A stretch of DNA of 64,000 nucleotides, taken from NCBI RefSeq assembly GCF_022827545.1, contig NZ_CP094669.1:2260001-2324000 (forward strand), in the 5' to 3' direction. The notes beneath the pieces were generated by a model. That model worked only from the letters and a program-made list of their open reading frames with translations, was not told the DNA's origin and did no database searches. Within the stretch, counting starts at the first letter, position 1, and each line of letters starts with the position of its first letter. The position numbers and the translations under genes are program-made. Positions 6,190 through 38,781 of this stretch are shown here, one piece after another. This DNA is from Hymenobacter tibetensis (lineage in GTDB: Bacteria > Bacteroidota > Bacteroidia > Cytophagales > Hymenobacteraceae).

Positions 6190-6277
6190 GCGAGTCAGAA
6201 CGACCAGCTCCTGTTGAACTCCCCCAGGACCGGAAGGTAGCAAGGGTAGACGGTTGAGCGGTGCGATTTTGGCTCGC
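6190..6277 (+). ncRNA. ffs: signal recognition particle RNA, small bacterial type
   Basis: The RNA scaffold of the signal recognition particle, partner of Ffh (encoded at 52367 in this window). It contains the conserved apical hairpin with the GGAA tetraloop (CAGGACCGGAAGGTAGCAAG, 6225-6244), including the asymmetric loop AGCA that binds the Ffh M domain. The terminal stem pairs GCGAGTCAGAA at the 5' end with TTTTGGCTCGC at the 3' end, with G-U pairs. A U-tract (6278-6285) terminates it. Short (4.5S-like) form without Alu domain. Confidence 0.93.
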
Positions 6278-6298
6278 TTTTTTTTGCCCTATACCCAA

Positions 6299-23075: not shown

Positions 23076-23189
23076 GTTTTTATACAGAGGCGCTGAGAGA
23101 CAGGCTCTAAGACGCGCCGGCAACCCCCGCTACCCGCGGAACGGTGCCAACCGAAGGCCAGCGGATTCACTCTCTGGCTATATAAAAAC
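23076..23189 (+). promoter_or_regulatory. SAM-I type riboswitch (unit 1)
   Basis: Closed by a perfect 9-bp P1 stem, GTTTTTATA (23076-23084) with TATAAAAAC (23181-23189). The core has the SAM-I landmarks in order: CAGAGGCGCTGAGAGACAGG, GGCTC, GACGC, CCGGCAACC and, after the P3 hairpin, GGTGCCAACC, then a P4-like hairpin. It binds S-adenosylmethionine in this class and normally shuts off sulfur and methionine genes. It precedes a Cys-rich leader ORF and an amino acid permease. Compare 38625-38718. Confidence 0.88.
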
Positions 23190-23197
23190 AAGTTGCC

Positions 23198-23299
23198 GTG
23201 CCTCATTCACTGAACACCCCGCTTTTTCTACTTGCTACTTCATTCGCTGCGCCTGCGGGCCGCGGGTGGGTTTGTTGTGGCGTGGGTTGTTGTTGCTGA
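23198..23299 (+). CDS. Cys-rich leader peptide (unit 1)
   Basis: A 33-codon ORF starting at GTG 23198, 8 nt after the riboswitch P1 stem, and ending TGT-TGT-TGC-TGA. The C-terminal part reads WVCCGVGCCC, with five Cys in ten residues. The sister leader at 38500-38616 also begins with GTG after the same sequence (AACAAGTTGCC) and also ends GCCC-stop, while the rest differs. Conservation of position, start and terminal Cys run, but not of the remaining sequence, points to a leader peptide that senses Cys-tRNA, not a functional protein. Polycysteine leader ORFs acting as cysteine attenuators are known from mycobacteria; here the role is inferred. Confidence 0.65.
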   Translation: MPHSLNTPLFLLATSFAAPAGRGWVCCGVGCCC

Positions 23300-23528
23300 G
23301 CGATACACAAAAGTTGATTTCTAGGGTTTGCCGTCGCATGGTGCTGCGTCCTGCGCCCATAGGCACCTAATCAGTCCTGCTTCCAATTACTTTTTCCTTA
23401 TCTGGTCTAAGCCTAACGGGCTGCGTATAACGCGGGCATTACGTCCGCACTACCAGCCACTTGGTGCATCCACAACCAGGTTTACTCAACGGGTGAGCGT
23501 GCATTAGCGCGTGCCTACACAACTTTTT
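23300..23528 (+). other. leader downstream of Cys-rich peptide
   Basis: 229 nt between the leader peptide stop and the permease. It contains a GGTGC...GGCACC pairing (23340-23367) and a 6-bp hairpin (23432-23448), but no canonical terminator with U-tract. Any attenuation mechanism here is unresolved. Confidence 0.4.
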
Positions 23529-24989
23529 ATGCTTAAAAAATCATTGGAACTACTGCGGCTCGAAGCTGCCGAAACTGGTTCCCACACGCTTAAACGAAGT
23601 CTGAATGGCTTCAACCTGATTACCATTGGTATCGGGGTAATTATTGGGGCGGGCTTGTTCTCGCTCACCGGTATTGCCGCCGCCAACAACACCGGCCCAG
23701 CCGTGACGCTCTCGTTTGTAGTGGCCGCCGTAGGTTGTGCGTTTTCGGCCCTCTGCTACGCCGAGTTTGCCTCTATGGTACCCGTGTCGGGGTCGGCTTA
23801 CACCTATGCCTATGCTACGATGGGCGAGCTGTTTGCCTGGATAATTGGGTGGGACTTGGTGCTCGAATACTCGGTTGGGGCGGCTACGGTGGCCATTAGC
23901 TGGTCGCAATACCTGGTGAAGTTTCTGGCCAAGTACAACCTGCACATTCCGGCGCAACTAGTCATGTCGCCCTTCGAAACAGCCACGCTGGCCGATGGCA
24001 CGTCGGTGCACGGTTTCGTGAACGTGCCGGCCATGCTGATTGTGCTGGCTATTACAGCTATTATCATTCGCGGAACGTCAGGGTCGGCGTGGTTTAATGC
24101 GTTGGTCGTCACGCTGAAAGTATCGGTGGTGCTGGTGTTCATTGCCCTAGGCTGGCAGTACATCGACCCGGCCAACTATCAACCGTATATCCCCGAGAAT
24201 ACCGGGACGTTTGGAGAGTTTGGACTAAGTGGCATTCTGCGCGGAGCGGGTGTTATCTTCTTCGTGTTTATTGGCTTCGACATCGTGGCGACTATGGCGC
24301 AGGAAACCAAGAACCCGCAGCGCAATATGCCCATCGGCATTATCGGGTCCCTGCTGATTTGCACCGTGCTATTTGTGCTTTTCGGACACGTAATGACCGG
24401 TTTGGCTAACTACACTGAGTTCAAGAACAGCGCCGCACCGGTGGCTATTGCCATCGAGAAAACGCCGTATGCTTGGCTATCGGCCGCCGTTATTCTGGCT
24501 ATCATTATCGGCTACACCTCGGTTATTTTGGTGGATTTGTTGGGGCAGAGCCGGGTGTTTTTCTCGATGGCCAAGGATGGCTTGCTGCCGCCAGTGTTTG
24601 GTAAGATTCACCCCACGTTCCGTACGCCGCTGCAATCCAACCTGCTGCTCGGCTTATTCATTGCCCTGTTTGCGGGCTTCGTGCCGATTTCAGTAGTAGG
24701 CGAAATGACCAGTATTGGTACGCTGCTGGCCTTCGTGATGGTGTGCTTGGGCATCCTGATTATGCGCAAGAAAGAGCCGAACGCGCCGCGTGGTTTCCGC
24801 ACGCCGTGGGTGCCCGTGGTACCTATTCTCGGCATCCTGACTTGCTTGGTAATGATGGTGTCGTTGCCGTGGGAAACGTGGTTGCGGCTAGGGGTATGGC
24901 TGGCTATTGGCCTAGCTATCTACTATGGCTACGGCAAGAAGCACAGCAAACTGCGGCAGCAAAGTGAGCTGCCTGCACAAGAAGTATAG
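23529..24989 (+). CDS. APC-superfamily amino acid permease
   Basis: 486 residues, 12 or so membrane helices. IGIGVIIGAGLFSLTG in helix 1 and GFDIVATMAQETKNPQRNMP in the helix 6 region are typical of cationic amino acid transporter (CAT, YfnA-like) members, which import amino acids with protons. Start taken at ATG 23529 (MLKKSLELLRLEA); GTG 23511 is possible. A SAM riboswitch and Cys-rich leader lie upstream on the same strand, which suggests import of methionine, cysteine or a related sulfur compound rather than Lys/Arg. Followed by a perfect terminator. Confidence 0.87.
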   Translation: MLKKSLELLRLEAAETGSHTLKRSLNGFNLITIGIGVIIGAGLFSLTGIAAANNTGPAVTLSFVVAAVGCAFSALCYAEFASMVPVSGSAYTYAYATMGELFAWIIGWDLVLEYSVGAATVAISWSQYLVKFLAKYNLHIPAQLVMSPFETATLADGTSVHGFVNVPAMLIVLAITAIIIRGTSGSAWFNALVVTLKVSVVLVFIALGWQYIDPANYQPYIPENTGTFGEFGLSGILRGAGVIFFVFIGFDIVATMAQETKNPQRNMPIGIIGSLLICTVLFVLFGHVMTGLANYTEFKNSAAPVAIAIEKTPYAWLSAAVILAIIIGYTSVILVDLLGQSRVFFSMAKDGLLPPVFGKIHPTFRTPLQSNLLLGLFIALFAGFVPISVVGEMTSIGTLLAFVMVCLGILIMRKKEPNAPRGFRTPWVPVVPILGILTCLVMMVSLPWETWLRLGVWLAIGLAIYYGYGKKHSKLRQQSELPAQEV

Positions 24990-25072: not shown

Positions 25073-26584
25073 CTAGAAAAACACCTTGCGCAGTGCCCAC
25101 AAGCTCCAGACAATCACCATCAACCCTACGCCCACAAACATCCACCGAACGGGGATGCGGCCAGCGAGGCGGGCTGCTATGGGCGAAGCGGCAACGCCAC
25201 CCACAATCAAGCCCAGGATAATCTGCCAGTGCGAAATGCCCAGCGTGGCGAAGAACGTAACGGCGCTGGCAAACGTGACGAAGAACTCGGTGACGCTCAC
25301 CGACCCGATGACGTACTGCGGTGTGCGGCCCCCGGCAATGAGGGTGCTCGTCACGAGGGGGCCCCAGCCGCCGCCGCCAAACGAATCGAGGAAGCCGCCA
25401 GCCGCGGCCAGTACACCTAGCTTCTTGTGCTTTTTGCGCGCACTCGGCTTGGAAAAGGCCTTGGAAATAATGCGGATACCTAGCAGCAGCAGATACACCG
25501 CCAAAAACGGCTTCACGTACTTCGCATATTCCTCACCAAACGTAGCCAGCAGGTAGGCCCCCGTGATGGCGCCCAGAACGCCCGGAATCAGCAACACCTT
25601 GAACAGCTTCTTGTTGACGTTGCCGAAGCGGTAGTGATGATAACCGGATGCGCCGCTAGCAAACATTTCGGCGGTATGAATACTCGCGCTGACCGCAGCC
25701 GGCGAGATGTTCAAACTCATCAAACTGATGGCCGTCACCACCCCGTAGCCCATGCCCAATAGCCCATCAACAATCTGCGCCCCAAAGCCGATGGCGACGA
25801 AAATGTAGAACGTATCGGCGTTGCTTGCTACCTCCCACGCCTGCTGCCAGGTGACGTAGTAGGAGATGATGTTGATAATAATAATGGCCATGAACGCCAG
25901 CAGCGACATGGTAGCCCGGCGGCGCCACATAGCCGCCGCCGGCGACTCGTAGGCCGGGCCGCCGGTTAGCTCAGCCGTCACGGCGTTGAGGGAGCGTACT
26001 TTGTGCGCAAAGTCGCCGCCTACCTTCTCCCGAATCGAGGACATGCGTTGTAGCACGTCGTTGAGCTCGTCGGGGAGGGTGGTGGTGAGCATCTCGCGCA
26101 GCCGCTTGGCAATGGTCGGCGACTTGCCGTTGGTACTGATGGCAATTTTCAAGTCGCCTTTTTGCACGATGGAGCCCAAGTAAAAGTCGCAGGCGTCGGG
26201 CGTGTCGGCTACGTTGCAGAGCAGGCGCTGCCGGGTGGCATCGGCCTTGATGGTGAGGTTCAGGGCCTTGTCGTCGGTGGCTACAATCACTAAGTCGTGG
26301 CCTACTAGGTCGGTAATCTGGTAAGGACCTTCGCGGAGCTGCACGGCCGGATGGCGCGCAGCCAGTTCCCGTAGGGCGGGCAGAAAATAAGTGGCTACTA
26401 CGGTTACCGCTGCCGCGGGGCTATTCGCTAGAATAGCAGACAGTTTTTCCAATCCTACATTTCCGCCGCCTACCAGCAGCACGTGCAGCTGTTCCAATTT
26501 CAAGAAGATGGGAAACAGTCGGTTCGCTCCTGTTAGTGGGGGCTCGGAGCGTGGCTGTGACACAGGGTTATTGGAAAGAGACAT
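25073..26584 (-). CDS. siroheme synthase domain fused to TauE/SafE sulfite exporter
   Basis: 503 residues with two unrelated parts. Residues 25-215 are the Met8p/CysG-N type precorrin-2 dehydrogenase/ferrochelatase: FPIFLKLEQLHVLLVGGGNVGLEKL, LVIVATDDKALN, and AISTNGKSPTIAKRLRE. From about 230 to the end there are eight or so membrane helices of the TSUP (TauE/SafE) anion exporter family, including IVDGLLGMGYGVVTAISL and GGFLDSFGGGGWGPLVTSTL. The first part makes siroheme for sulfite reductase; TSUP members export sulfite or related anions. It is the last gene of the sulfate-assimilation run, 132 nt after the hemoprotein gene. Both halves serve sulfite handling, and I see no frameshift at the junction. 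Confidence 0.9.
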   Translation of the reverse strand: MSLSNNPVSQPRSEPPLTGANRLFPIFLKLEQLHVLLVGGGNVGLEKLSAILANSPAAAVTVVATYFLPALRELAARHPAVQLREGPYQITDLVGHDLVIVATDDKALNLTIKADATRQRLLCNVADTPDACDFYLGSIVQKGDLKIAISTNGKSPTIAKRLREMLTTTLPDELNDVLQRMSSIREKVGGDFAHKVRSLNAVTAELTGGPAYESPAAAMWRRRATMSLLAFMAIIIINIISYYVTWQQAWEVASNADTFYIFVAIGFGAQIVDGLLGMGYGVVTAISLMSLNISPAAVSASIHTAEMFASGASGYHHYRFGNVNKKLFKVLLIPGVLGAITGAYLLATFGEEYAKYVKPFLAVYLLLLGIRIISKAFSKPSARKKHKKLGVLAAAGGFLDSFGGGGWGPLVTSTLIAGGRTPQYVIGSVSVTEFFVTFASAVTFFATLGISHWQIILGLIVGGVAASPIAARLAGRIPVRWMFVGVGLMVIVWSLWALRKVFF

Positions 26585-26716: not shown

Positions 26717-28432
26717 CTACTCGTGGAAGTTCAGGCCGTGCGTGGAAGCTTGCACGTACCCCCGACGGACGGTGAAATCTCCAAACCGCTCAAGCGGCTC
26801 TCGGTTTTCAGCATAGTCGGCAAAAATCGGCGTCAGCTCCCGCACTATACCATCTTCATCCAGCATTTCTTTATACAGTTTGTTGAGCCGCTCGCCGTTG
26901 AAAGCCGCTCCCAAATACAAATTATAACGCCCGACGGAGCGGCCCACCAACCCAATTTCGCCCAGATAAGGGCGGGCGCAACCGTTGGGGCAGCCCGTCA
27001 TCCGCAGCAAGATATCATCTTGCGTTAAATTATACGCTTTCATGCTTTCCTCCAATCGAGTGAGCAACTGCGGAAGATAACGCTCGGCTTCGGCAAATGC
27101 CAGCGAGCAGGTATTCAGCGCCACGCACGCCAATGCCCCGCGTCGTAGCCCCGACAAGTCGTTGCCGGCTACTTCCACGCCATGTTCGGTGAGCAGAGCT
27201 TGAATAGTGAGGCGGTGCTCGGGCGCTACGTTGGCAATAATCACGTTTTGGTTGCCGGTCAGGCGGAAGTCGCCGGTGTGGAAGGCGGCAATTTCGCGCA
27301 ACGCGGTTTTCAGGGTGTTGCCGGGGCGGTCGGCTACGCGGCCGCCTTCCACCAGCAGCGTGAGGTGATGCGCACCATCGGGGCTGGTTGTCCAGCCGAA
27401 GGCGTCGCCGGTGCTTTCAAACTTGTAGGCGCGGCCGAGTTCCAACTCGTAGCCCAGGCGCTGGTTGAGTTCTTGCCTGAATACATCCAGGCCCACCCGG
27501 TCGAGGGTGTACTTGAGGCGCGAGTACTTGCGGTTTTCGCGGTTGCCCCAATCGCGCTGAATGGTTACCACCTTTTCGCAGAGGTCCACTACCTTGTCGG
27601 CGGGCACGAACCCGATGATATCGGCCAGGCGCGGGTAGGTATCGAGCATGCCGAACGTCATGCCCATGCCGCCGCCAACCGCCACGTTGAAGCCGAGTAG
27701 TTGGCCCTTTTCCTCGATGGCAATTAGGCCTAAGTCGTTGGCAAAGATGTCGGTATCGTTGTGGGGCGGAATGGCTAGCGCAATCTTGAACTTGCGCGGC
27801 AGGTAGGTTTTGCCGTAGATCGGCTCGGCATCCTCTTCGCCTTCGTTGGGCGCACTGATGTGCTGCTGTTCGCCATCGAGCCACAATTCCCAATAGGCCG
27901 ACGTGCGTGGCGTGAGGTGGGCGCTGATCTGGCGCGACACTTCATACACCTGCGCGTGCACCTCGGACTGGTGCGGGTTGGGGTTGCACATCACGTTGCG
28001 GTTCACGTCGCCGCAGCCCGCAATGCTGTCCATAAACACCTGGTTGAAGCCGAGAATCGTCTTCTGGAGGTTGCGCTTGAGCACCCCGTGTAACTGAAAC
28101 GTCTGGCGGGTGGTTATCTTGAGGGTGTTGTTGGCGAACTTCGTCGAGAGTTCATCCATACGCAGCCACTGCGCGGGCGTGGCAATGCCGCCCGGCACGC
28201 GTACCCGAATCATGAGCGAGTACAGGGGCTCCAGCTTCTGGCGTTTCCGCTCGCTGTCCAGGTCCCGGTCGGTTTGTTGGTACGAGCCGTGGAACTTGAT
28301 GAGGTGGGTATCGTCGGGGTTGAGGGCGCCCGTAATCCGATTGACGAGACTGTCGGCCAGCGTGCCACGCAGGTAGTTGCTGGCCGTCTTGACGTGTTCG
28401 ACTTCGGATAATTTTATGATGGTATCGGCCAT
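26717..28432 (-). CDS. sulfite reductase hemoprotein
   Basis: 571 residues. Reduces sulfite to sulfide with siroheme and a 4Fe-4S cluster in the cytoplasm. The cluster ligands are visible as C-x5-C (ACVALNTCSLAFAEAERY) and C-x3-C (TGCPNGCARPYLGEIGLVG). Two ferredoxin-like half-domains precede each sirohaem-binding part (PGGIATPAQWLRMDELS... and GGGMGMTFG). Start at 28432 (MADTIIKLSEVEHVK); the frame is open further upstream, but that part overlaps the DUF2490 gene on the same strand. Its flavoprotein partner is at 32225. CysI-type rather than nitrite reductase is favoured by the sulfate operon context. Confidence 0.93.
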   Translation of the reverse strand: MADTIIKLSEVEHVKTASNYLRGTLADSLVNRITGALNPDDTHLIKFHGSYQQTDRDLDSERKRQKLEPLYSLMIRVRVPGGIATPAQWLRMDELSTKFANNTLKITTRQTFQLHGVLKRNLQKTILGFNQVFMDSIAGCGDVNRNVMCNPNPHQSEVHAQVYEVSRQISAHLTPRTSAYWELWLDGEQQHISAPNEGEEDAEPIYGKTYLPRKFKIALAIPPHNDTDIFANDLGLIAIEEKGQLLGFNVAVGGGMGMTFGMLDTYPRLADIIGFVPADKVVDLCEKVVTIQRDWGNRENRKYSRLKYTLDRVGLDVFRQELNQRLGYELELGRAYKFESTGDAFGWTTSPDGAHHLTLLVEGGRVADRPGNTLKTALREIAAFHTGDFRLTGNQNVIIANVAPEHRLTIQALLTEHGVEVAGNDLSGLRRGALACVALNTCSLAFAEAERYLPQLLTRLEESMKAYNLTQDDILLRMTGCPNGCARPYLGEIGLVGRSVGRYNLYLGAAFNGERLNKLYKEMLDEDGIVRELTPIFADYAENREPLERFGDFTVRRGYVQASTHGLNFHE

Positions 28433-28436
28433 GAGC

Positions 28437-29204
28437 TTATTGAGGAGCGGGAATTGGAGCGGGCGGCGGGGTGGGCCGCAAGTCGAAATTGTGAAAGTAA
28501 AACACCCGAATGGTGTGCTGGTTGCGGTACGTGCTGCCTGCCGGAAGCTGCTGAAACAGATGCATATAGCCGGCGTGCAATTGCCCGTGCTTGTTGGCCT
28601 GATACACGAGGCCAGCAAACAGGCGGTTTTGGTCGAAGTAGTTGTAGCGAATCTCCTTACCGAAATTCATCATCACCTCGTTGTTGAGTAGAAATTGCAG
28701 CCCACCCGGGTCGAACCCGCGTTTGGTGAGCGGCAGGAAAAGGGCCGCGTTGTAGCGGACCCGGTAGTTGAAATCGTAGTCCTCGGTGCGTTCGTTGTCG
28801 CGGATAGTGTTGCGAAACCGTTCTTCCAGCCGCACCCACTGCATCAAGCGGGCCTTCGGGAAGCGCGTAAACCACTGCACCTGCTGCCACGGCCGATGCT
28901 CGGGTTGGCCCACCGTGCGCGCCCCATCCGGAAAGTGGTGCACGTAGGCATAGCCCCCGGTCAGCCGCACGTCATCAGTGAGATAATACGTGAGGCCGAC
29001 CCGCGCCACGCCCTGAAACAAATCCTGCACATACCGGTCGTGCAGGCGCAAGTGCAAGTCCGTCCAAGTGCCCCACCGCTGCGAGAAGCGGGTTTGATTG
29101 AAAACCCCTAGCCACGTCTGTTGTTCCCGCACATACTGCTTCTGCGCCCGCACTGGCAGCGCCGCCACGAGTAAGCAAGAGAGTAAAAACAGGCGGAAGC
29201 TCAT
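28437..29204 (-). CDS. DUF2490-family outer-membrane protein
   Basis: 255 residues. Signal peptide MSFRLFLLSCLLVAALPVRAQ, then amphipathic beta strands alternating in the DUF2490 style (QQTWLGVFNQTRFSQRWGTWTD, RLEERF, YRVRYNAALFLPL, NEVMMNFGK). Probably a small beta-barrel in the outer membrane. It is 8 nt from the TonB receptor and 4 nt from the hemoprotein, so translated as part of the sulfate operon. Function unknown; the company suggests uptake of a sulfur source. Confidence 0.8.
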   Translation of the reverse strand: MSFRLFLLSCLLVAALPVRAQKQYVREQQTWLGVFNQTRFSQRWGTWTDLHLRLHDRYVQDLFQGVARVGLTYYLTDDVRLTGGYAYVHHFPDGARTVGQPEHRPWQQVQWFTRFPKARLMQWVRLEERFRNTIRDNERTEDYDFNYRVRYNAALFLPLTKRGFDPGGLQFLLNNEVMMNFGKEIRYNYFDQNRLFAGLVYQANKHGQLHAGYMHLFQQLPAGSTYRNQHTIRVFYFHNFDLRPTPPPAPIPAPQ

Positions 29205-29212
29205 AGCGAGTG

Positions 29213-32092
29213 TTAGCGAAGGATGGTGTTGTCGAAGGTCACAGCCACGTAGTAGAGCCCGCCAATGGTTGGGCCGGCCGCATACTGGATATAGCGGTTG
29301 TTGAACAGGTTGGTGCCGCCTAGCTTGATGGTTGATTTCAGGTTCGGGATACGCACGTTCACTTGCGCGTCTACGGTTTGGTAGGCCGGTATCTGACCGT
29401 TAGCAAGTTGGCTTTCCCACAAGAACGAATCTTGGTAGCGCCACACCACGTTGAAGCCCACGTTGCGAACCACTTCGCGGTTGCCGAAGCTTAGGTTGGT
29501 GGTCCACTTGGGCGTGTTGAAGCCGGTAATAAACACGTCCTGCGTGCTGTTAGTGGCAATGTTGTTGTAGTTGACGTTGCCGGCCAGCGTGTATTTCTGG
29601 TAGAAGTTGTAGGTGACGCCCAGCGCCGAGCCGTAGCTGCGGTATTGGTTGCGGGCATTGGCATATACTCGGTACCGGTCTTGCTGTCCGCGGGTCAGCA
29701 TGTCCAGCACCGACGCATCCGTGCCCACTGCCCCCGACTTCGGCACGGCCACTTCCACCTGTCCCAAGAAGCCCGAATACACGTTGTAGTACGCATCCAG
29801 GTCGAGGGCCAAACGGTTGTCGAAGAGCACACTGCGGTAGCCTACTTCAAACGCGTTGATGCGCTCCGGTTCCATAGTCGGCAGGTTGGCTACTTGCAGC
29901 ACGTCGCGGTTGTTGAGGGCGGCCCGCTGCTGCTTTTGCGCAGTGGTACCAGTTCCATTGTCGGCGGCTACGTCGCGGCTAACCGCGGCCGTGAAGTTGT
30001 CGAGGGAGGTGAGGGTGTAGGAGTTGTCGAGGAAGCCAAGGCCTTCGTTTACGCGGGCCAGGCCGCCCACGCGGCGCACGTTGCCGTTATTCACGAACGA
30101 CAGGGCTTCAAACAGCGCCGGGAAGCGCCAGCCGTTCTGGAATGACGCCCGGAAGTTGTGGTTTTTGGCCGCCGTGTACACCGCCGCAATCCGGGGGTTC
30201 AGCTTGGGGTTGAACTCGGGGTTGTAGTCGAGGCGGAGCGAGGCGTTCAGCTTCAGGCGGTCTTGCAGTAGCAGCTTGGTGCCTTGCGCAAAGCCCCCGA
30301 ACTTCTTGTAGTACACGTTGTTGCCGCCCGGCGTGGTGCGGTCGGCAAGGGGTTTCGAGAAGTCCACGAAGTTGTTGCCATCGGGTATCACCTCGTACAC
30401 CCGGGCATCGGCGCCGAGCACCACATCGGCAAACTTGATGCGCCGGCCTACATTCCATTGCGCCTCGTTGTGGTAGGTGCGGCTGCGCTGCCAGAGGGCA
30501 GCCCCGCCCGTGGCCGGAGCGCCCGGCACGTTCACGCCACTGTCCCAATTGTTGATGCCGGTGATGGTGTTTTTGAGCTGGTTGAACGCCTCGGTGCCCG
30601 GCTCAGCGCGGCCGGCATCGGCTACGGCGCGGGCTTGCTGCATGGCCGTAGCCAGGTCGGTGCCGCGGTTCACTTGGTTCTGCAACTCGGTCCGGAACTT
30701 GTTGCCCCACACCGTGTTCGAGCCGTTGTTGAGGTCGAGGTTGAGGGCCAGCGGGTTCAGGTTGTAGGAGTCGCCGGTGTTTTCTACCAGCACGTAGCTG
30801 CGCACGTAGTAGTCGGCGCCGCGCAGTTCCAGCTTGTGGTTTTGCACGGTCACGTCCTTGAGCTGAATCTTGTTGCCGCGCTGGAAAATACCGTCCATCA
30901 GGCCGTAGCGGTAGCCGTAGGAGAGTTCCAGCTTATCGGTGAGCTTGTAGAACAAGCCGCCATCGAACTTGAGGTTGCGGACAGTGGGCGAAATCAAGTC
31001 CTTCTCGTAGTAGCCGGTGCGGCGCACGTTGAAGGTCTCGGTGCGGCCGCCGTACTGGATTGCCACCGGCACGTTGCCACTCCGGTCGTCGCCGTAGCGG
31101 TTCCAGAGGTCGGCGGCCGGGTTATTGGCGCCCGACAGTTCAGAAAAGCGTGGGTTGGCCGAGTTCAGGTTCTGCGGGTTCTGGTCGGTTTGGGTGTCGG
31201 CCAGCCAGTCGGTGCCGCGCAAGTAGCTGAAGTTCACCTTGAAGGCAAACTTGTTGTTGAACGCCTGCGCGTAGCGCACCGCCGTTTCGGTCAGCACGCT
31301 CGGGTCCCGGTCTTTGCCATCCACATGGTTAACGCCCACCTTCTGGTACACGCTCAGCCCCTGATAAGTAAAAGGGCTTTTGGTGGTTAGGTTGGCCATG
31401 CCGTTGATGGCGTTCATGCCGTACAGCGCCGACGCCGCACCGGGCGTGATTTCCACGCTGGCAATATCTAGCTCCGTTGGCCCGATAGCGTTGCCGAGCG
31501 GCACACCGAGCGTGGCCGCCTGCATGTCCACACCATCCACGAGCTGCATGAAACGGAAGTTGTTCGGGATGTTGAAGCCGCGCGTGTTTGGCACCTTGAA
31601 CGTGATGCTCGACGTGGTCATCTGCACGCCCTTCACGTTTTCCAACGCGTCATAGAAGCTCGGCGCCGGCGTTTCCTTGATAGCCCGAATATCCAGCTTC
31701 TCGATAGCCACCGGCGACTTCAGCCGGCTTTCCTCCACCCGCGACGCCGACACCACCACCTCGTTCACGGCAATGGCCCTCGATTCGAGTTGCACCGCAA
31801 TCGGCTGGCTGCCGCTGGCTACTTCCAGCTCCCGGGCTTCGTACCCCACGGTGTTGAATACCAGCGTAAACGGAAACCGCAGCCGCGCCTTTAGCTCGAA
31901 CTTGCCGCTCATATCGCTCTGCGTGCCCACCGAAGCGCCCTTCACACTCACACTTACGCCCGGCAGCGGCTGCTTTGTGCCTTTCTCATACACTGTGCCG
32001 CTGATGGCTATCAGCGCATCCTGCGCCTGCGCAGGCACAGCGGCCAACGCCACGGCCGGAACAAGCAATAAAGAAGCGTAGTGTGCTTTCAT
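29213..32092 (-). CDS. TonB-dependent receptor in sulfate operon
   Basis: 959 residues. Signal peptide to about residue 23, a CarboxypepD_reg-like domain (SGTVYEKGTKQPLPGVSVSVKG), a plug domain (SPVAIEKLDIRAIKETPAPSF ... VEITPGAASALYGMNAINGM) and a long 22-strand barrel ending in DNTILR, with a C-terminal aromatic-poor tail. It imports a ligand across the outer membrane using TonB energy. No SusD partner follows, so it is not a typical glycan system. Position between sulfite reductase subunits suggests a sulfur-containing ligand (sulfonate, sulfate ester or thiol complex), which is inference. Confidence 0.9.
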   Translation of the reverse strand: MKAHYASLLLVPAVALAAVPAQAQDALIAISGTVYEKGTKQPLPGVSVSVKGASVGTQSDMSGKFELKARLRFPFTLVFNTVGYEARELEVASGSQPIAVQLESRAIAVNEVVVSASRVEESRLKSPVAIEKLDIRAIKETPAPSFYDALENVKGVQMTTSSITFKVPNTRGFNIPNNFRFMQLVDGVDMQAATLGVPLGNAIGPTELDIASVEITPGAASALYGMNAINGMANLTTKSPFTYQGLSVYQKVGVNHVDGKDRDPSVLTETAVRYAQAFNNKFAFKVNFSYLRGTDWLADTQTDQNPQNLNSANPRFSELSGANNPAADLWNRYGDDRSGNVPVAIQYGGRTETFNVRRTGYYEKDLISPTVRNLKFDGGLFYKLTDKLELSYGYRYGLMDGIFQRGNKIQLKDVTVQNHKLELRGADYYVRSYVLVENTGDSYNLNPLALNLDLNNGSNTVWGNKFRTELQNQVNRGTDLATAMQQARAVADAGRAEPGTEAFNQLKNTITGINNWDSGVNVPGAPATGGAALWQRSRTYHNEAQWNVGRRIKFADVVLGADARVYEVIPDGNNFVDFSKPLADRTTPGGNNVYYKKFGGFAQGTKLLLQDRLKLNASLRLDYNPEFNPKLNPRIAAVYTAAKNHNFRASFQNGWRFPALFEALSFVNNGNVRRVGGLARVNEGLGFLDNSYTLTSLDNFTAAVSRDVAADNGTGTTAQKQQRAALNNRDVLQVANLPTMEPERINAFEVGYRSVLFDNRLALDLDAYYNVYSGFLGQVEVAVPKSGAVGTDASVLDMLTRGQQDRYRVYANARNQYRSYGSALGVTYNFYQKYTLAGNVNYNNIATNSTQDVFITGFNTPKWTTNLSFGNREVVRNVGFNVVWRYQDSFLWESQLANGQIPAYQTVDAQVNVRIPNLKSTIKLGGTNLFNNRYIQYAAGPTIGGLYYVAVTFDNTILR

Positions 32093-32224: not shown

Positions 32225-34144
32225 TTAATACACGTCCTCTAAGTAGCGGCGCGACTTTTTCAACTGCTTCAAGTAGTCGGCGGCGTAGTCGGCATCCTGG
32301 CCGCTTTGCTGCTCGATGATGGTGAGGAGTGCTTTGCGTACATCGGCGGCCATCCGGTTTTTGTCGCCGCAGACGTAGAAGTAGGCGCCATCTTCCAGCC
32401 ATTTGAATACTTGCGGTGCTTGCTCCAACAGGCGGTGCTGCACGTAGATTTTCTCGGCTTGGTCACGAGAAAATGCCAAGTCGAGGCGAGCCAGCGAGCC
32501 TTGCTTGAGGTGTTGCTGCCACTCGGTTTGGTACAGGAAATCGGTGGTGAATTCCGGGTTGCCAAAGAACAACCAGTTGCGCCCCGGCGCGCCCGACTCG
32601 GCCCGCTCCGCCACAAATGAGCGGAACGGCGCCACACCCGTTCCCGGCCCTACCATGATAATGTCGGTAGCCGGGTTCTGCGGCAGCTTGAAGTATTCGT
32701 TGCGGTCCACCCACACGCGGGCCGTATCGCCAATAGCCAGATGGTCGGCTTGATACACCGAGCAAGCGCCGTGCTTTTGGCGGCCGTGGGCTTCGTAGCG
32801 CACCGCGCCTACCGTCAGGTGCACTTCATCGGGGTGAGCCAGTGGGCTGCTGGCAATGGAATACGCCCGGGCCGGCAGCGGCCGTAGCACCGCCGCCAAA
32901 TGCTGCGCCGACAAATCGATGGGGAAGTGGGTGAGCAAATCCACAATGTCGCGGCCGTAGAGGAAGGCTTGCAGCTGCGTAGTCCCGAGCAACGCCTCGC
33001 GCAATTCCGAGTACTGCGGCGCCAGAGCGGCGTAGCGCTCCAGCACATCACGCGTCAGCACCGATAGTTCCAAGTGCTCGGTTAGCGCAGTGGTCAAATC
33101 TAGTTCCACACCTTTCAGTTGCACCGGTGCGGTAGCATCGAGGCGGGCTGCCTTCACTACATCCGCCACCAATTCGGGGCGGTTCGTGGGCTGCACCATT
33201 AGCGCGTCACCGGGCTCATACTGAAGGCCGGAGCCTTCCAAAGAAAACTCTAAATGGTAGGTTTCCTTCGCGGAGCCGCGGCCATTGAGTTGAATCTTCT
33301 CTAGCAACGGCGCATCGAACTGTACGTCTTCGTGCTGCACCGCGGGCTTGGGCGCTGGCACCGGACTGCTGGCCACCCGGAATGCCGATAAATCTGCCTG
33401 GCTGCCACCGTTCAAAGAAACCGCTGCCGCTTGAGCCAAAGCCGCTCCCGTGCTCGGGCCAACTTCAGGTGCGGCCGTAGCTACTTCCTGCGCTAGCACG
33501 TCCAGCACCCGGTCGGCCCACTGCGCCGCCGACTCCTGAAATTCCACGTCGCACTCCACCCGGTCAGCGAGGCGCTGCGCACCCAAGGCCGCTAACCGCT
33601 CATCGAACTCGATACCGGTCTGGCAGAATTGCAGGTAACTTTTGTCGCCGAGGGCCAGCACCGAATAGCGCAACGCCGGGAGCTTGGGTGCACGCGGGCC
33701 CAACAGGAACTGGTGCAAATCTTCGGCGGCAATTGGCGGTTCTCCTTCCCCTTGCGTGCTGGTAATCACAAGCAATTGTTGCTCCGATGCCAAGGCGCGC
33801 GTAGGGTAATCGTTCATGTCGCGCACGGTGGGCTCTAGCCCGCGTTGGCGCGCTGCTTCAGCGGTTTGCAATGCCACTTTCTTGCTGTTGCCAGTCTGCG
33901 AGCCATACAATATGGTAAGGCGCGAAGGAGCAGCTGCCGTTGGTGCCGGTTGCGCCGCGGCTGGTGCTGCAATAGTAGCGGCCGGCGAGTTAGCGGCCAC
34001 CGGTTGCTGTGCAGGTTCGGCGGCGCGGCCGTATAGGTAGCCGCTCAGCCACAGCAATTGCTGGTTGGTGAGATTAGCTGTTAACTCGTTGAGTGCCTTA
34101 TCGTCGAGGCCGATTGGCAGCGAGGAAGAAGAGGGAGTAGGCAT
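32225..34144 (-). CDS. sulfite reductase flavoprotein (diflavin reductase)
   Basis: 639 residues. Flavodoxin domain with FMN loop ILYGSQTGNSKKVALQTAEAA (about 75-215), a variable linker rich in Ala, then an FAD/NADPH oxidoreductase module: RAYSIASSP (FAD), KHGACSVYQAD, VGPGTGVAPFRSFVAER and CGDKNRMAADV, ending EDVY with a C-terminal aromatic residue over the flavin as in CysJ. It passes electrons from NADPH to the hemoprotein encoded at 26717. The N-terminal 70 residues form a short helical extension. Partner and substrate are assigned from context; P450 reductase-like use is unlikely here. Confidence 0.9.
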   Translation of the reverse strand: MPTPSSSSLPIGLDDKALNELTANLTNQQLLWLSGYLYGRAAEPAQQPVAANSPAATIAAPAAAQPAPTAAAPSRLTILYGSQTGNSKKVALQTAEAARQRGLEPTVRDMNDYPTRALASEQQLLVITSTQGEGEPPIAAEDLHQFLLGPRAPKLPALRYSVLALGDKSYLQFCQTGIEFDERLAALGAQRLADRVECDVEFQESAAQWADRVLDVLAQEVATAAPEVGPSTGAALAQAAAVSLNGGSQADLSAFRVASSPVPAPKPAVQHEDVQFDAPLLEKIQLNGRGSAKETYHLEFSLEGSGLQYEPGDALMVQPTNRPELVADVVKAARLDATAPVQLKGVELDLTTALTEHLELSVLTRDVLERYAALAPQYSELREALLGTTQLQAFLYGRDIVDLLTHFPIDLSAQHLAAVLRPLPARAYSIASSPLAHPDEVHLTVGAVRYEAHGRQKHGACSVYQADHLAIGDTARVWVDRNEYFKLPQNPATDIIMVGPGTGVAPFRSFVAERAESGAPGRNWLFFGNPEFTTDFLYQTEWQQHLKQGSLARLDLAFSRDQAEKIYVQHRLLEQAPQVFKWLEDGAYFYVCGDKNRMAADVRKALLTIIEQQSGQDADYAADYLKQLKKSRRYLEDVY

Positions 34145-34231: not shown

Positions 34232-35035
34232 TTAAGCTACTTCGGCGTAGGCCGCGGGGAAAGCCGGGAAGGTTAAGCTTGGCAGTAGCGTGGCAGCCTC
34301 GGCATGCGTTGTCGCCAAACGAGTGACTTCGCCGATAACAATGATGGCCGGGGCCCCAATACCGGCCGCTGCCGCACGGCTTGGTAGCTCAGCTACCGTG
34401 CCCGTTACCAATTGAGCATTCGGTAAAGTGCCGTTCTGGATGATGGCCGCCGGCGTATTGGCCTGCCCGTGTTGGCAGTACAACGCCGCAATCCGCTCCA
34501 ATTCGCCCAAGCCCATCAGAATAACCGTAGTAGTGCGGGTGCTAGCCGCCTCCCGCACGCTCCCCGACAACTCGCCAGTAGCCGTGGTGGCCGTAATCAC
34601 CCGGAACCCTTCGCTGGCCCCACGGTGCGTTACCGGTATGCCCACGCTGCCGGCCGCTGCAACGGCGCTGCTAATGCCTGGTACATAGTCGGTAAGCAAG
34701 CCGTGTTGCTCAGCATAAAGCATTTCTTCGCGTCCGCGCCCAAACACAAACGGGTCGCCACCTTTCAGCCGCACCACGTGGCCGTGTAGGCGGGCCTGCT
34801 CCACAATCAGCGCGTTTATTTCGTCTTGGCTATAGCTGCGCATGCCGCGCCGTTTGCCCACAAAGATTGTCACTGCATCGGGCCGGGCGTGGCTAAGCAA
34901 GTCGTTGTTAGCCAGCGCATCATACAGAATTACATCGGCTTCGCCCAACACCCGCGCCCCCTTCAGGGTCAGCAGCTCCGGGTCGCCGGGGCCAGCACCT
35001 AGCACGGTAAGGCGAGGGATTTTAGTGAGTGACAT
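34232..35035 (-). CDS. cobA: uroporphyrinogen-III C-methyltransferase
   Basis: 267 residues, SAM-dependent. Makes precorrin-2, the siroheme precursor. Family landmarks: LTVLGAGPGDPELLTLKG, DVILYDALA, VVRLKGGDPFVFGRG and YVPGISSAVAAAG. Start at ATG 35035 (MSLTKIPRL); 11 upstream codons are not needed. In E. coli this activity is fused to the dehydrogenase in CysG; here it is separate and the dehydrogenase is fused to a transporter at 25073. Confidence 0.94.
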   Translation of the reverse strand: MSLTKIPRLTVLGAGPGDPELLTLKGARVLGEADVILYDALANNDLLSHARPDAVTIFVGKRRGMRSYSQDEINALIVEQARLHGHVVRLKGGDPFVFGRGREEMLYAEQHGLLTDYVPGISSAVAAAGSVGIPVTHRGASEGFRVITATTATGELSGSVREAASTRTTTVILMGLGELERIAALYCQHGQANTPAAIIQNGTLPNAQLVTGTVAELPSRAAAAGIGAPAIIVIGEVTRLATTHAEAATLLPSLTFPAFPAAYAEVA

Positions 35036-35104
35036 AAGCAATGAGTGGTGATAGAGGACCTGCTGCAACTTCGCTTAGCAGGACCGTTCTCGAATAGATG
35101 CTAA

Positions 35105-36394
35105 CTAGATGGAAAAGGCTACCGGAGGCGCCACCGGGGCCGTGAAGTAGTCGGCGTTGGCGGCGCCAATCAGGCCGGCGGCTACGGTGTCGCCGCTTTG
35201 CTCGTCAACTAAGATGAAAGCGCCGGTTACGCGGTTTTCGTGGTAGTTGTCAACGGCCAGGGGCACGGCGGTTTTGATGCGTACCCGCACGATGTCGTTG
35301 AGCTGCGCTGAATCGGCGGCGGCGCGGGCGAAAGTTTGCACGTTCACCTTATGCAGAATAGCCGGTATTGCCGCTTTTACCACGGCGGAATGGTGCTGCA
35401 ACAGCAGTTTGCGACCCGGCCACAATGGCTGCTCGCTCATCCAGCACACGGTAGCTTCCAGTTCCCGCGTCAGAGTAGGCACGTGCTCCACCGGAATGAT
35501 GGCGTCGCCCCGGCTAATATCCACGTCATCGGTGAGGCGCAGCACCACGGCTTGCGGCGCCGTAGCAGTTTCCACCTCTTGCTGATTGACTTCAATAGCC
35601 TCAATCGTCGATTCCAGGCCCGAAGGCAGCACCTTCACCCGGTCGCCGCGGCGGTATTGACCGCTTTGGATCTGGCCGGCGTAACCGCGGTAGTCGGGTA
35701 GGTCGGCGGTTTGGGGGCGGATAACATATTGCACCTGAAAGCGTGGGGCGGCATTGGCTGCTTCCACAGCGGCGGGCACGCTTTCCAAATGTTCCAGCAA
35801 GCTAGGGCCCGTGTACCAAGACAAGCGGTTGGAGCGTTTTACCACGTTGTCGCCGTGCAAAGCGCTGAGCGGAATAGCGGTAGCAGCGGGCAGTTGGAAA
35901 TGGTCAGTGAGGGCGGCGTAATCAGCGGCAATCTGCTCGAAAATATTTTGATCGAAGCCCACCAGATCCAGCTTGTTCACGGCCAGCACAAAGTTGCGAA
36001 TCCCGAGCAAAGCCGCTACCAGCGTATGGCGGCGCGTTTGCTCTACTACACCTTGGCGGGCGTCCACTAGCACAATGGCCAAGTCGGCGTTGCTGGCACC
36101 CGTCACCATGTTGCGGGTGTACTGCACGTGGCCCGGCGCATCCGTGATGATGAATTTGCGCCGCGGCGTAGTAAAGTATTTATAGGCGACATCAATGGTG
36201 ATGCCCTGTTCCCGCTCGGCTCGTAAGCCGTCGGTTAGCAAGGCCAAATCCACGGTGCCTTGCACAGTAGGCCGGTTTTCCAGCGCCGCCAGCACATCCA
36301 ACGACACCGAATCGGAGTCGTAGAGCAGGCGGCCAATGAGCGTGCTTTTGCCGTCGTCGACGCTGCCGCAGGTGATGAATCGGAGAAGGTCCAT
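35105..36394 (-). CDS. cysN: sulfate adenylyltransferase subunit 1 (GTPase)
   Basis: 429 residues. EF-Tu-like GTPase that powers APS formation with CysD. G1 GSVDDGKSTLIGRLL, G2/G3 region EREQGITIDVAYKYF and DAPGHVQYTRNM, G4 NKLD, then two beta-barrels. No fused APS kinase domain. Start at 36394 (MDLLRFITCG) by homology; the frame continues upstream through tandem repeats without homology. 92 nt after cysD. Confidence 0.95.
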   Translation of the reverse strand: MDLLRFITCGSVDDGKSTLIGRLLYDSDSVSLDVLAALENRPTVQGTVDLALLTDGLRAEREQGITIDVAYKYFTTPRRKFIITDAPGHVQYTRNMVTGASNADLAIVLVDARQGVVEQTRRHTLVAALLGIRNFVLAVNKLDLVGFDQNIFEQIAADYAALTDHFQLPAATAIPLSALHGDNVVKRSNRLSWYTGPSLLEHLESVPAAVEAANAAPRFQVQYVIRPQTADLPDYRGYAGQIQSGQYRRGDRVKVLPSGLESTIEAIEVNQQEVETATAPQAVVLRLTDDVDISRGDAIIPVEHVPTLTRELEATVCWMSEQPLWPGRKLLLQHHSAVVKAAIPAILHKVNVQTFARAAADSAQLNDIVRVRIKTAVPLAVDNYHENRVTGAFILVDEQSGDTVAAGLIGAANADYFTAPVAPPVAFSI

Positions 36395-36397
36395 GAG

Positions 36398-36484
36398 GTG
36401 AAATTGTGAGTTTGTGAAATTGTGAGTTCGTCGTGCTGGCGAGGCGTGAAAGCAATTCACAACCTCACCCTTCACAACTTCACC
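36398..36484. repeat. tandem and inverted repeat between cysD and cysN
   Basis: Two adjacent 16-nt copies of GTGAAATTGTGAGTTY (36398-36413, 36414-36429) face inverted copies of the same theme (36456-36484, TTCACAACCTCACCC and TTCACAACTTCACC). The segment can fold into an imperfect long hairpin within the operon. Confidence 0.65.
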
Positions 36485-36486
36485 AC

Positions 36487-37398
36487 TTAGAAATAGCCGT
36501 TGCGTTTGCGGTCTTCCATGCCGGCTTCCGAAATGTTATCGTCGAGACGGGTAGCGCCTCGTTCGCTCACTTTGGCCAGCAACAAATCCTGAATGATGTC
36601 TTCCACGGTGCTAGCGTCGCTTTCCACGGCGGCCGTGCAGGTAGAGTCGCCCACAGTGCGGAATCGCACTTGCCGGGTCACGATTTCGTCTTCCTCGTCG
36701 AGCTGCAAGTGCTCGGATAAGCCCAATAGTTGGCCGCTCGGCAGCACCACGCAAGTCCGCTCGTGGCCGAAGTAGATGTCGGGAAGGCTGATGTTTTCGC
36801 GCTGGATGTAGCGCCACACGTCGAGCTCGGTCCAGTTGGAAATCGGGAAAACCCGCACGTTTTCGCCTTTCTGGATACGGCCGTTGTACACGTTCCACAG
36901 CTCCGGGCGCTGGCGCTTGGGGTCCCACTGCCCGAACTCGTCGCGGACCGAGAAGATGCGCTCTTTGGCACGGGCTTTCTCTTCGTCGCGCCGGGCCCCG
37001 CCGATGCAGGCGTCAAACTCAAATTCCTCGATTACCTCCAGCAGCGTGTAAGTCTGGAGCGGGTTGCGGCTCGGAAACTTGCCACCTGGCTCGCGTAGGC
37101 GCTGCCGCTTGATGGTGTCTTCCACGCTGCGCACAATTAGCTTCTCGCCTAGTTCTGCAGCCAGTTGGTCGCGGTAGGCGAGCACCTCCGGGAAGTTGTG
37201 GCCGGTATCCACGTGCACCAGCGGGAAAGGGAAGCGGCCCGGGCGGAACGCTTTTTCGGCAAGCCGCGTGAGAACGATGGAGTCTTTACCGCCCGAGAAA
37301 AGCAGCGCCGGCCGCTCAAATTGGCCAGCTACTTCCCGCAGGATGTGAATGGCTTCGGCTTCCAGCCGGTCGAGGTAATCGAAGGAGTGCGCACTCAT
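36487..37398 (-). CDS. cysD: sulfate adenylyltransferase subunit 2
   Basis: 303 residues. PP-loop ATPase activating sulfate to APS. PP-loop in ALLFSGGKDSIVLTRLA, then HVDTGHNFPEV, the CysD-specific GGARRDEEKARAKER and FPISNWTELDVWRYI, ending DRKRNGYF as in the family. Start at 37398 (MSAHSFDYLDRLEAEAIHILREV). Confidence 0.96.
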   Translation of the reverse strand: MSAHSFDYLDRLEAEAIHILREVAGQFERPALLFSGGKDSIVLTRLAEKAFRPGRFPFPLVHVDTGHNFPEVLAYRDQLAAELGEKLIVRSVEDTIKRQRLREPGGKFPSRNPLQTYTLLEVIEEFEFDACIGGARRDEEKARAKERIFSVRDEFGQWDPKRQRPELWNVYNGRIQKGENVRVFPISNWTELDVWRYIQRENISLPDIYFGHERTCVVLPSGQLLGLSEHLQLDEEDEIVTRQVRFRTVGDSTCTAAVESDASTVEDIIQDLLLAKVSERGATRLDDNISEAGMEDRKRNGYF

Positions 37399-37514
37399 GG
37401 TTTCTAGGATTTGCTGATGCGGCACCGGAAGGTCAAGTAGCATGGCTTTTGATGATTTCGGTGCCGGATAGAAGGGTCTGGAGCAAGCGCTCCAGAATAG
37501 TTATGAGAGGAGAA

Positions 37515-38294
37515 TTAGTGCTGCTTTTCAACCGGCTCTACCACCGGGTCGGGCCCGTCGTGGTGGGCGGTGGTGGAGTGTAGGCCGCATTCCTTGGCAG
37601 AAAGGTCTTCCCACCACCAGCGGCCGGCCCGAAAATCTTCGCCAGGCTTGATGGCGCGGGTGCAGGGTGCACACCCAATGCTCACGAAGCCTTGCTTGTG
37701 CAGCGGATTCACCGGAATGCCGTTCGCTTGGGCGAAATCCACCGCTTGCTCCCACGTCCAGTCGAAAAGTGGGTGAATCTTGGTGAGGTTGTGGGCAGCG
37801 TCCCATTCCACCGGGTCCATGGTTTGCCGGTTCTGCGACTGCTCAGCCCGGATACCCGTTACCCACGCGGCTTGGCCCGCCAGCGCCCGGTTTAGGGGCT
37901 CTACCTTGCGGATGTAGCAGCACTCCTTGCGGTTTTCAACGCTTTCGTAAAAGCTGTTGGGACCTTTGGTGCGCATCAATTCTTCCACGCTTTCCTGGCG
38001 CGGGTGAAAGACCTCAATCGGCTGCTGATACTTGAGCAGCGTCTTGTTCCAGGTGGAGTAAGTTTCCTGAAAGTTGCGCCCCGTATCTAATGTGAACACC
38101 TTGATGGGTAGCTCGTTTTCAAAGATTAGATGGCTGATAATCTGGTCTTCCAAGCCGAAGGAAGTAGAGAAGACCGCCTTTTCGGGGAAGTGCTTGGCTA
38201 CGAGGCGTAGCCGCTCCAAGGCAGAAGCTGACGGTAGCTGAAGGCGAAGGTCGTCCAGCACGGGAACGGCCAACACGGCAGAGGCTGTGGGCAT
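37515..38294 (-). CDS. cysH: APS/PAPS reductase
   Basis: 259 residues. Reduces adenylylsulfate to sulfite with thioredoxin. Substrate loop STSFGLEDQIISHL, LDTGRNFQETY, then the double Cys pair of iron-sulfur APS reductases: KECCYIRK and SIGCAPCTRAIK. These four Cys ligate a 4Fe-4S cluster, so the substrate is APS rather than PAPS. No APS kinase is present nearby, which agrees. First gene of the operon, behind the SAM riboswitch and the Cys-rich leader. Start at 38294 (MPTASAV). Confidence 0.95.
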   Translation of the reverse strand: MPTASAVLAVPVLDDLRLQLPSASALERLRLVAKHFPEKAVFSTSFGLEDQIISHLIFENELPIKVFTLDTGRNFQETYSTWNKTLLKYQQPIEVFHPRQESVEELMRTKGPNSFYESVENRKECCYIRKVEPLNRALAGQAAWVTGIRAEQSQNRQTMDPVEWDAAHNLTKIHPLFDWTWEQAVDFAQANGIPVNPLHKQGFVSIGCAPCTRAIKPGEDFRAGRWWWEDLSAKECGLHSTTAHHDGPDPVVEPVEKQH

Positions 38295-38499
38295 GAAAAG
38301 AAATGAGAGAGGAATTTGCCGCGGCGGCAAGGGTCCAGCCGGAGGATAGCTTTGGAAGTGCCAGGATGCTCATGCACCGCTGAAACCAACCGAAAGCGAA
38401 AAGCGGAGTGTACGGATACGGGGTAGAGCTACGCGTAAAAGCGTATCAGCTCACCACATTCAGCGCACAAACCAAGAAAAAGAGAGGGGTGCGCTACTC
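38295..38499 (-). other. leader between Cys-rich peptide and cysH
   Basis: 205 nt, minus strand. It contains pairings AGCGCAC/GTGCGCT just after the leader stop and a hairpin GAGCT...AGCTC (38432-38458), neither followed by a U-tract. Candidate attenuator structures, not resolved. Confidence 0.4.
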
Positions 38500-38616
38500 C
38501 TAACAACAGCAACCAAAAGCCACGGTCATACAGACGGGGCTTGCCATGCCACAACACCCATGCTGTACAGCAGAGAAGGTGGCAGAAATGGCGGCAGTGT
38601 TGATGAAGCGTTTCAC
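38500..38616 (-). CDS. Cys-rich leader peptide (unit 2)
   Basis: 38 codons starting at GTG 38616, 8 nt after the riboswitch P1 stem, and ending TGC-TGT-TGT-TAG. The sequence has HGCCGM, a single Cys (PVCM) and the tail AFGCCC, six Cys in all. Start context AACAAGTTGCC-GTG and the terminal GCCC-stop are the same as in unit 1 (23198-23299); the bodies do not align. Its placement ahead of cysH, in cysteine biosynthesis, fits ribosome stalling or slow passage at Cys codons when Cys-tRNA is scarce. Translation itself is not proven by sequence. Confidence 0.68.
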   Translation of the reverse strand: MKRFINTAAISATFSAVQHGCCGMASPVCMTVAFGCCC

Positions 38617-38624
38617 GGCAACTT

Positions 38625-38718
38625 GTTTTTATATGGTCAGGACTTGGCACCGTTTCGGATCATCCGATGGTTGCCGGCGCTTCGTCGAGCCTGTCTCTCC
38701 ACGCCTCTGTATAAAAAC
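38625..38718 (-). promoter_or_regulatory. SAM-I type riboswitch (unit 2)
   Basis: Minus strand. P1 is the same 9-bp stem as in unit 1 (GTTTTTATA with TATAAAAAC). Inside are CAGAGGCGTGGAGAGACAGG, GCGCCGGCAACC, and AACGGTGCCAAGTCC, the SAM-I core. It lies ahead of the Cys-rich leader and cysH, so the whole sulfate operon should respond to SAM. Confidence 0.88.
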
Positions 38719-38748
38719 AATCCTTTTGGGGGTAAAGAATTGATACTG

Positions 38749-38781
38749 CAAAGGTAGTGGCGGAAATTTTATACTTCCAAA
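38749..38781 (-). promoter_or_regulatory. promoter of the sulfate operon leader
   Basis: Minus strand TTTG (38781-38778), 21 nt, TACCTTTG (38756-38749). The predicted start at 38742 is the first base of CAATTCTTTACC (38742-38731), identical to the transcript start of unit 1. The stretch 38782-39012 upstream holds nothing recognisable. Confidence 0.72.

Follow-up and report, generated by a model that had tools for sequence, protein, structure and literature searches.

The sulfate assimilation locus

The window, by which we mean the whole 64,000-nucleotide stretch of Hymenobacter tibetensis DNA analysed here, contains a sulfate assimilation operon whose genes all lie on the minus strand, in the order cysH, cysD, cysN, siroheme methyltransferase, cysJ, TonB receptor, DUF2490 protein, cysI, and a CysG-N/TauE fusion. 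The first gene, cysH (37515..38330), encodes an APS/PAPS reductase, in agreement with the name cysH given in the first-pass annotation; its frame opens at a TTG, and its first ATG lies at 38294. The other operon genes assigned to the pathway are cysD (36487..37443), cysN (35105..36475), the uroporphyrinogen-III C-methyltransferase gene for siroheme (34232..35068), cysJ (32225..34144) and cysI (26717..28618). The genes for the TonB-dependent receptor and the DUF2490 protein (28437-32092, minus strand) intervene between cysJ and cysI, and the ORF at 25073-26584 (minus strand) fuses a siroheme-synthase N-terminal domain to a TauE/SafE sulfite exporter domain. Elsewhere, the window encodes a small SRP RNA of the Bacteroidales type (6181-6283, plus strand; RF04183, 71.3 bits).

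Upstream of cysH and on the same strand is a SAM-I riboswitch aptamer (38626..38717), which matches the whole RF00162 model in sequence and structure with 75.7 bits against a curated cut-off of 44.4. It is followed by a leader ORF (38500..38616, minus strand) with a GTG start, 38 codons and six Cys, translating as VKRFINTAAISATFSAVQHGCCGMASPVCMTVAFGCCC-stop; its C-terminus reads Gly-Cys-Cys-Cys-stop, with the three Cys codons TGC TGT TGT (38503..38511) directly 5' of a TAG. The first-pass annotation had described this aptamer and this Cys-ended ORF in front of the sulfate assimilation genes, and the Rfam match and ORF reading bear out both. It had also placed the GTG just after the P1 stem, which stands, at a distance of 8 nt, which becomes 9 nt when the last base of the aptamer is set by the Rfam boundary. 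The 205 nt that it gave from the leader stop to cysH are correct when counted to the first ATG, the cysH frame itself opening earlier, at the TTG. In form it agrees with a leader-peptide attenuator, in which a short ORF containing consecutive regulatory codons precedes the genes for the amino acid concerned.

The elements on either side of the leader ORF were read from the sequence. Upstream of the aptamer stands a promoter-like box, TACCTTTG (38749..38756, minus strand), of the type TANNTTTG, which we take to be the Bacteroidota -7 type promoter consensus; 48 of the 70 non-redundant leaders described below have TANNTTTG in the 90 nt before the aptamer, compared with 3.2 expected from mononucleotide shuffles. 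With this box and the 92-nt aptamer 5' of it, the ORF is not leaderless. Beyond the leader stop there is a pyrimidine tract (38474..38489, minus strand), a possible Rho-binding site, and then a hairpin zone (38418..38459, minus strand) whose best local hairpin reaches -16.3, versus -13.2 in shuffles, and which is part of the pairing predicted from an alignment of cysH leaders. The structure of the window leader as a whole is not unusual relative to shuffles (z -1.21).

Further copies in the genome

The genome contains seven RF00162 matches, five of which are followed, 7-10 nt past the aptamer, by the start of an ORF with a Cys-rich end. The five ends are ..VQHGCCGCCC, ..VAFGCCC (the window cysH leader), ..CCGVGCCC, ..RMRMRCCCSACCCCC and ..GCCGLMRPFVCMQMTGMSC. 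One of these copies, absent from the first-pass annotation, also lies in the window: a second SAM-I aptamer (23077..23188, plus strand; RF00162, 70.9 bits) is followed by a GTG-initiated leader ORF ending VCCGVGCCC-stop (23198..23299, plus strand), 3' of which is an amino-acid permease gene (23511..24989, plus strand). The remaining two SAM-I leaders of the genome are L004, which precedes metH, and L001, which has a terminator-like hairpin and seven T.

Conservation of start, frame and Cys run

The RF00162 search covered genomes of the genus (61), the family (60) and the phylum (158), and 209 leaders were read, mainly those with high-scoring aptamers; the sample is uneven, with 140 (two thirds) coming from the family. 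Among them were 86 candidate Cys leaders. Four (L015, L036, L178 and L194) were excluded as terminator-type or as having no terminal Cys run, although L178 may be a true member; of the 82 kept, 79 come from the family, and 70 are non-redundant. L032 and L105, in which the Cys codons are in mid-ORF, were left out of the counts.

A strict rule, by which the start lies at +5 to +13 and the ORF has 15-80 codons with at least three Cys among the last eight, is satisfied by 71 of the 209 leaders. It is satisfied by 59 of the 70 non-redundant leaders, which had been pre-chosen for Cys content, versus 4 of 7000 dinucleotide shuffles. When all 209 leaders are taken, with no selection for Cys, their first 220 nt hold 77 runs of three TGY codons, every one of which shares the frame of the first ATG or GTG at +5 to +13. 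The position of the start is likewise narrow (+9 in 45 of the 70 leaders, +7 to +10 in 64), and in the non-redundant leaders Cys accounts for 40.2% and Met for 8.2% of the final 12 residues, compared with 3.1% and 1.6% in the ORF body; the Cys run reaches the stop or comes close to it. Chance does not explain a Cys run beside the aptamer. The first-pass annotation had asked whether relatives might keep the aptamer and lose the start, the frame or the Cys run; tested in this way, family leaders retain all three, whether or not they are orthologous.

At most of the invariant Cys positions the codon, too, is unchanged. The peptide body gives pN/pS values of 0.67 in Pedobacter, 0.76 in the genus labelled g4 and 0.25-0.58 in the other three groups tested, suggesting a weak constraint on the body in some groups. 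The value of 0.30 in four Hymenobacter cysH leaders could be taken to mean that the ORF yields a small Cys-rich protein with a trans function such as metal or redox binding. We regard this as very improbable: paralogous leaders within one genome differ in their bodies while the Cys end and the place next to P1 stay constant, and the leader ORF belongs to no Pfam family.

We also scanned public genomes with a pattern built from the end of the aptamer, its P1 strand and an adjoining start codon; Cys codons play no part in it. The scan yielded at least 120 stretches, of which 80 loci were listed and 73 used (seven without an aptamer core were dropped). Among the matches listed, 42 of the 73 aptamer loci have at least three Cys in the last ten codons, compared with 121 of 16,182 control ORFs; this fraction should not be read as the share among all SAM-I leaders, because the pattern demands a start beside P1 and the counts come from the matches listed. 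The rest comprise 15 loci with two Cys, seven with a Cys/Met mixture and nine with neither, two of these nine being incomplete sequences. Here too, 37 of 38 runs of three TGY codons among the matches listed are in frame. Conservation therefore extends beyond the family, with start, frame and Cys run retained in other lineages: 36 of the 42 Cys-tailed loci among the matches listed are from outside Hymenobacter, with members in Pedobacter, Mucilaginibacter, Sphingobacterium, Psychroflexus, Haliscomenobacter, Saprospiraceae, Cyclobacteriaceae, Pontibacter and others. The Cys ORF is not universal to SAM-I leaders. Among leaders from outside the family that were fetched by score, it occurs in three of 69 (five before two were dropped), namely in none of the 30 from L061 to L090 and in three of the 39 from L171 to L209.

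Aptamer-free and serial forms

In a set of 30 cysD loci from the phylum, a convincing Cys-ended ORF stands upstream at the window's locus and at two others. The Cys-ended ORF at L349 (549-651, plus strand) ends ..LIKCCCSCLE, its stop is 48 nt from cysH, the tract TTTCCCCCACCTTTTTC lies between the two, and the locus has no Rfam match at E 0.01. This aptamer-free form shows the Cys ORF to be a separate module. At L355 (3216-3582, minus strand) the elements are arranged serially: a SAM-I aptamer (68.8 bits), a hairpin, a Cys-ended ORF and cysH. The hairpin has a six-T run and a fold z of -2.94, and a stricter terminator scan of it gave no matches. The ORF, which ends ..ACCCCQKFAACCCKC, starts 112 nt past the aptamer, and P1 therefore cannot gate it there.

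These separate forms are what one would expect if the leaders combined two independent devices, with the Cys ORF attenuating, the aptamer acting elsewhere, and their closeness reflecting economy of space. L349 has the ORF and no aptamer, and L355 has an aptamer with its own terminator-like hairpin ahead of the ORF. For the joined leaders we think such independence unlikely. Their start spacing stays within narrow limits, although the ORFs differ widely in length and in how far they lie from the gene, and neither the terminator scan of the window leader nor the P1-complement test of 70 leaders found another platform for the aptamer.

A leader ORF in the place of the expression platform

The classical SAM-I antiterminator, in which the 3' strand of P1 pairs with downstream RNA, was sought in the 70 leaders and rejected, since no such partner exceeded shuffles. 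There thus appears to be no usual antiterminator, and the leader ORF itself appears to be the expression platform. A repeat, TTTATACTT, which by eye looks like a copy of the P1 5' strand in some g3 leaders, found no support in the complement test.

The P1 3' strand, which is A/U-rich, spans roughly positions -20 to -10 relative to the start codon of the leader. In a folding model of 68 of the 70 leaders (two with starts outside +5 to +13 were omitted), the mean unpairedness of the region -21 to +6 is 0.63 without the P1 5' strand and 0.47 with P1, compared with 0.44 elsewhere in the leader; the drop from 0.63 to 0.47 is partly built in, because P1 was imposed in the model. From this geometry we infer that SAM may gate the leader ORF. 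SAM would stabilize P1, the 3' strand of which would be the A/U-rich upstream part of the initiation region, so that with ample SAM the leader ORF would go untranslated. With low SAM the leader would be translated, and ribosomes would slow on its Cys and Met codons when the charged tRNAs are scarce. A ribosome held just 5' of the stop would let transcription proceed into the operon; with no ribosome near the stop, either because SAM is high or because of normal release, transcription would end early.

We think it likely, on the strength of arrangement and conservation, that these leaders are cis-acting attenuators that read the supply of both SAM and Cys/Met, whatever the output step. The more specific reading, to which the evidence inclines us, is that in several Bacteroidota lineages the closing helix of the aptamer switches an amino-acid-sensing leader ORF, the leader peptide serving as the expression platform, so that sulfur genes would be on only when both SAM and charged Cys-tRNA (in some leaders, Met-tRNA) are low. 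The first-pass annotation had proposed a joint signal of SAM and cysteine; arrangement and conservation fit that proposal, and the enrichment of Met in the tails suggests widening its second input. The architecture (aptamer, spaced start, Cys run, pyrimidine tract, sulfur genes) is itself a matter of observation.

The output step

For the output step we prefer Rho, which would load on the pyrimidine tract, over an intrinsic terminator. A pyrimidine tract is enriched at +4 to +45 after the stop (mean z 0.97, p 1e-7) in 114 leaders, comprising the 70 non-redundant leaders and 44 named loci chosen for at least two Cys near the end, and at +61 to +102 the same 114 leaders have none. A pyrimidine-rich, G-poor tract by the leader stop, as in Rho-dependent leaders, is therefore present and specific in position, and a rho gene was found in the window's genome. 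The C and G shares after the stop are ordinary overall and resemble those of metH leaders, so that the Rho step would depend on the local tract; for the same reason an overall bias of C over G after the stop was discarded as proof of Rho. After the stop the RNA is also more stably folded than in shuffles (mean z -0.90), a property that an open Rho site would not require. Taken on its own, Rho loading is a tentative assignment, for which the case falls somewhat short of even.

That excess of folding is instead what classical ribosome-mediated attenuation would predict, in which alternative hairpins lead to an intrinsic terminator and SAM gates translation of the leader. In the same direction, pairing between the Cys codons and the RNA after the stop is slightly above shuffles in the 70 leaders (mean z -0.41, p 0.003), an RNAalifold model pairs the Cys codons with a segment near +45, mutually exclusive segments are apparent by eye in Mucilaginibacter leaders, and L131, with a long stem followed by ATCTTTTTT, is a convincing single case of a terminator. 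Against this, terminator-like sites were found in 30 of the 70 leaders where 21.5 were expected, compared with 50 of 75 in a positive control, and the terminator energy test gave p 0.05, compared with p 2e-6 for the positive control of 30 terminator-type SAM leaders. The terminator scan gave no site in the window's own leader, in which the Cys codons pair with the RNA after the stop worse than in shuffles (z +1.45), and the 48 nt from stop to gene at L349 leave little for classical hairpins. We therefore consider the classical scheme doubtful, and we set aside an intrinsic terminator common to the leaders, for which both scores gave weak signals.

Shared structure differs among groups. In the g3 O-acetylhomoserine-sulfhydrylase leaders RNAalifold returned no pairs, and several of these leaders taken singly fold well below shuffles. 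Seven Pedobacter-type leaders have hairpins in common, and for four of the 28 pairs both partners are altered in some sequence; in seven Hymenobacter cysH leaders 34 pairs were predicted, of which 12 have changes on both sides and several are broken in some sequences. There is room for different output steps in different lineages.

Control could also be translational, the leader ribosome opening a structure over the cysH start or reinitiating there, and translational outputs are known for other leaders (PMC11260477). In nearly all leaders listed, however, the gap from stop to gene is 97 to more than 300 nt, and the final 25 nt ahead of the gene are unpaired more often than the RNA further up (0.60 versus 0.47, in 67 of the 70 leaders), which makes this quite unlikely. 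A Rho-dependent step at the pyrimidine tract remains, with modest confidence, the output that we prefer.

Relation to known systems

Like other SAM-I riboswitches (RF00162), the aptamer before cysH lies upstream of sulfur genes, and its score clears the family cut-off by a wide margin; in contrast to them, neither an antiterminator partner for P1 nor a terminator was found in its leader, and a Cys-ended ORF occupies the position of the platform. In E. coli tnaC, a ribosome detained at the leader's end blocks the access of Rho to the neighbouring RNA. The proposed likeness is that a ribosome held at the end of the Cys ORF would shield RNA from Rho in the same way, whereas the signal here would be a shortage of charged tRNA and translation of the leader would be gated by the aptamer. 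Leaderless polycysteine ORFs have reportedly been described in mycobacteria (by Canestrari, in 2020); here the start codon is not the 5' end of the transcript, and the ORF follows an aptamer.

Leader ORFs with Cys codons also precede cys operons in Actinobacteria, with no conserved terminator and with polyY motifs suggested as Rho sites, and tnaC was cited as a model (PMC1262725). They resemble the present leaders in that consecutive Cys codons lie close to the stop, upstream of cys genes, and in the absence of a conserved terminator; the available text of that paper describes no aptamer, while here the ORF begins 9 nt past a SAM-I aptamer (PMC1262725). The cysS uORF motif uORFC-8-2 carries a tandem pair of Cys (positions 14-15) together with an intrinsic terminator; as here, the Cys codons of a short ORF are the presumed sensor, but the available part of the source describes no aptamer (PMC8632094). 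In Mycobacterium tuberculosis, B12 riboswitches act together with uORFs, which is similar in that a translated ORF, either governed by a riboswitch or lying within one, determines how the following gene is expressed. In the part of that report available, nothing presents the uORF as a sensor of amino acids, and ppe2, a case of termination-reinitiation, has a stop/start overlap, unlike the 205-nt gap seen here (PMC11260477).

Riboswitches and leader-peptide attenuators are usually regarded as substitutes, one taking the place of the other from group to group (PMC2965389). Here the two occur together, with little variation in the distance between them; one genome has five copies, and several lineages of the phylum share the arrangement. 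The first-pass annotation knew of no SAM riboswitch with a polycysteine leader in Bacteroidota, and our search of open-licence PMC papers likewise yielded no description of a SAM riboswitch coupled to a leader peptide. Each half is already known, and their fusion was not found in the open literature. If the proposed reading is true, these leaders would be a natural two-input gate in one RNA and would account for SAM-I leaders without a terminator.

Genes downstream of the Cys leaders

We counted gene types downstream of the 209 leaders, with clusters named from one member each. The Cys ORF is present before the APS/PAPS reductase in 15 of 15 leaders and before the amino-acid permease in 9 of 9, and it was not found in any of the 37 metH leaders or before homoserine dehydrogenase (0/9) or MetX (0/7). 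Between these extremes are the O-acetylhomoserine sulfhydrylase (27 of 89 leaders) and a cluster of the TonB-receptor type (7 of 11). None of the six SAM-I leaders before cysteine synthase (L001, L009, L013, L015, L017 and L020) has a Cys ORF, which counts against a simple rule that cysteine genes carry it. A RimK-like ATP-grasp gene (the cluster includes L002:2010-3011) has the Cys ORF in all 11 of its leaders, hinting at a sulfur function for the gene. If our reading of the leader is correct, it would mark candidate sulfur-function genes more widely, including this ATP-grasp enzyme, TonB receptors and a carboxypeptidase.

The Met share of the tails is 13% in sulfhydrylase leaders, 11% in cysH leaders and 1% in permease leaders. 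A few individual leaders have Met or Cys-Met endings, as if tuned to methionine: SATRMR at L285, PMCMCMQ at L241, CCMRMPILGN at L214 and CCITRMR at L178.
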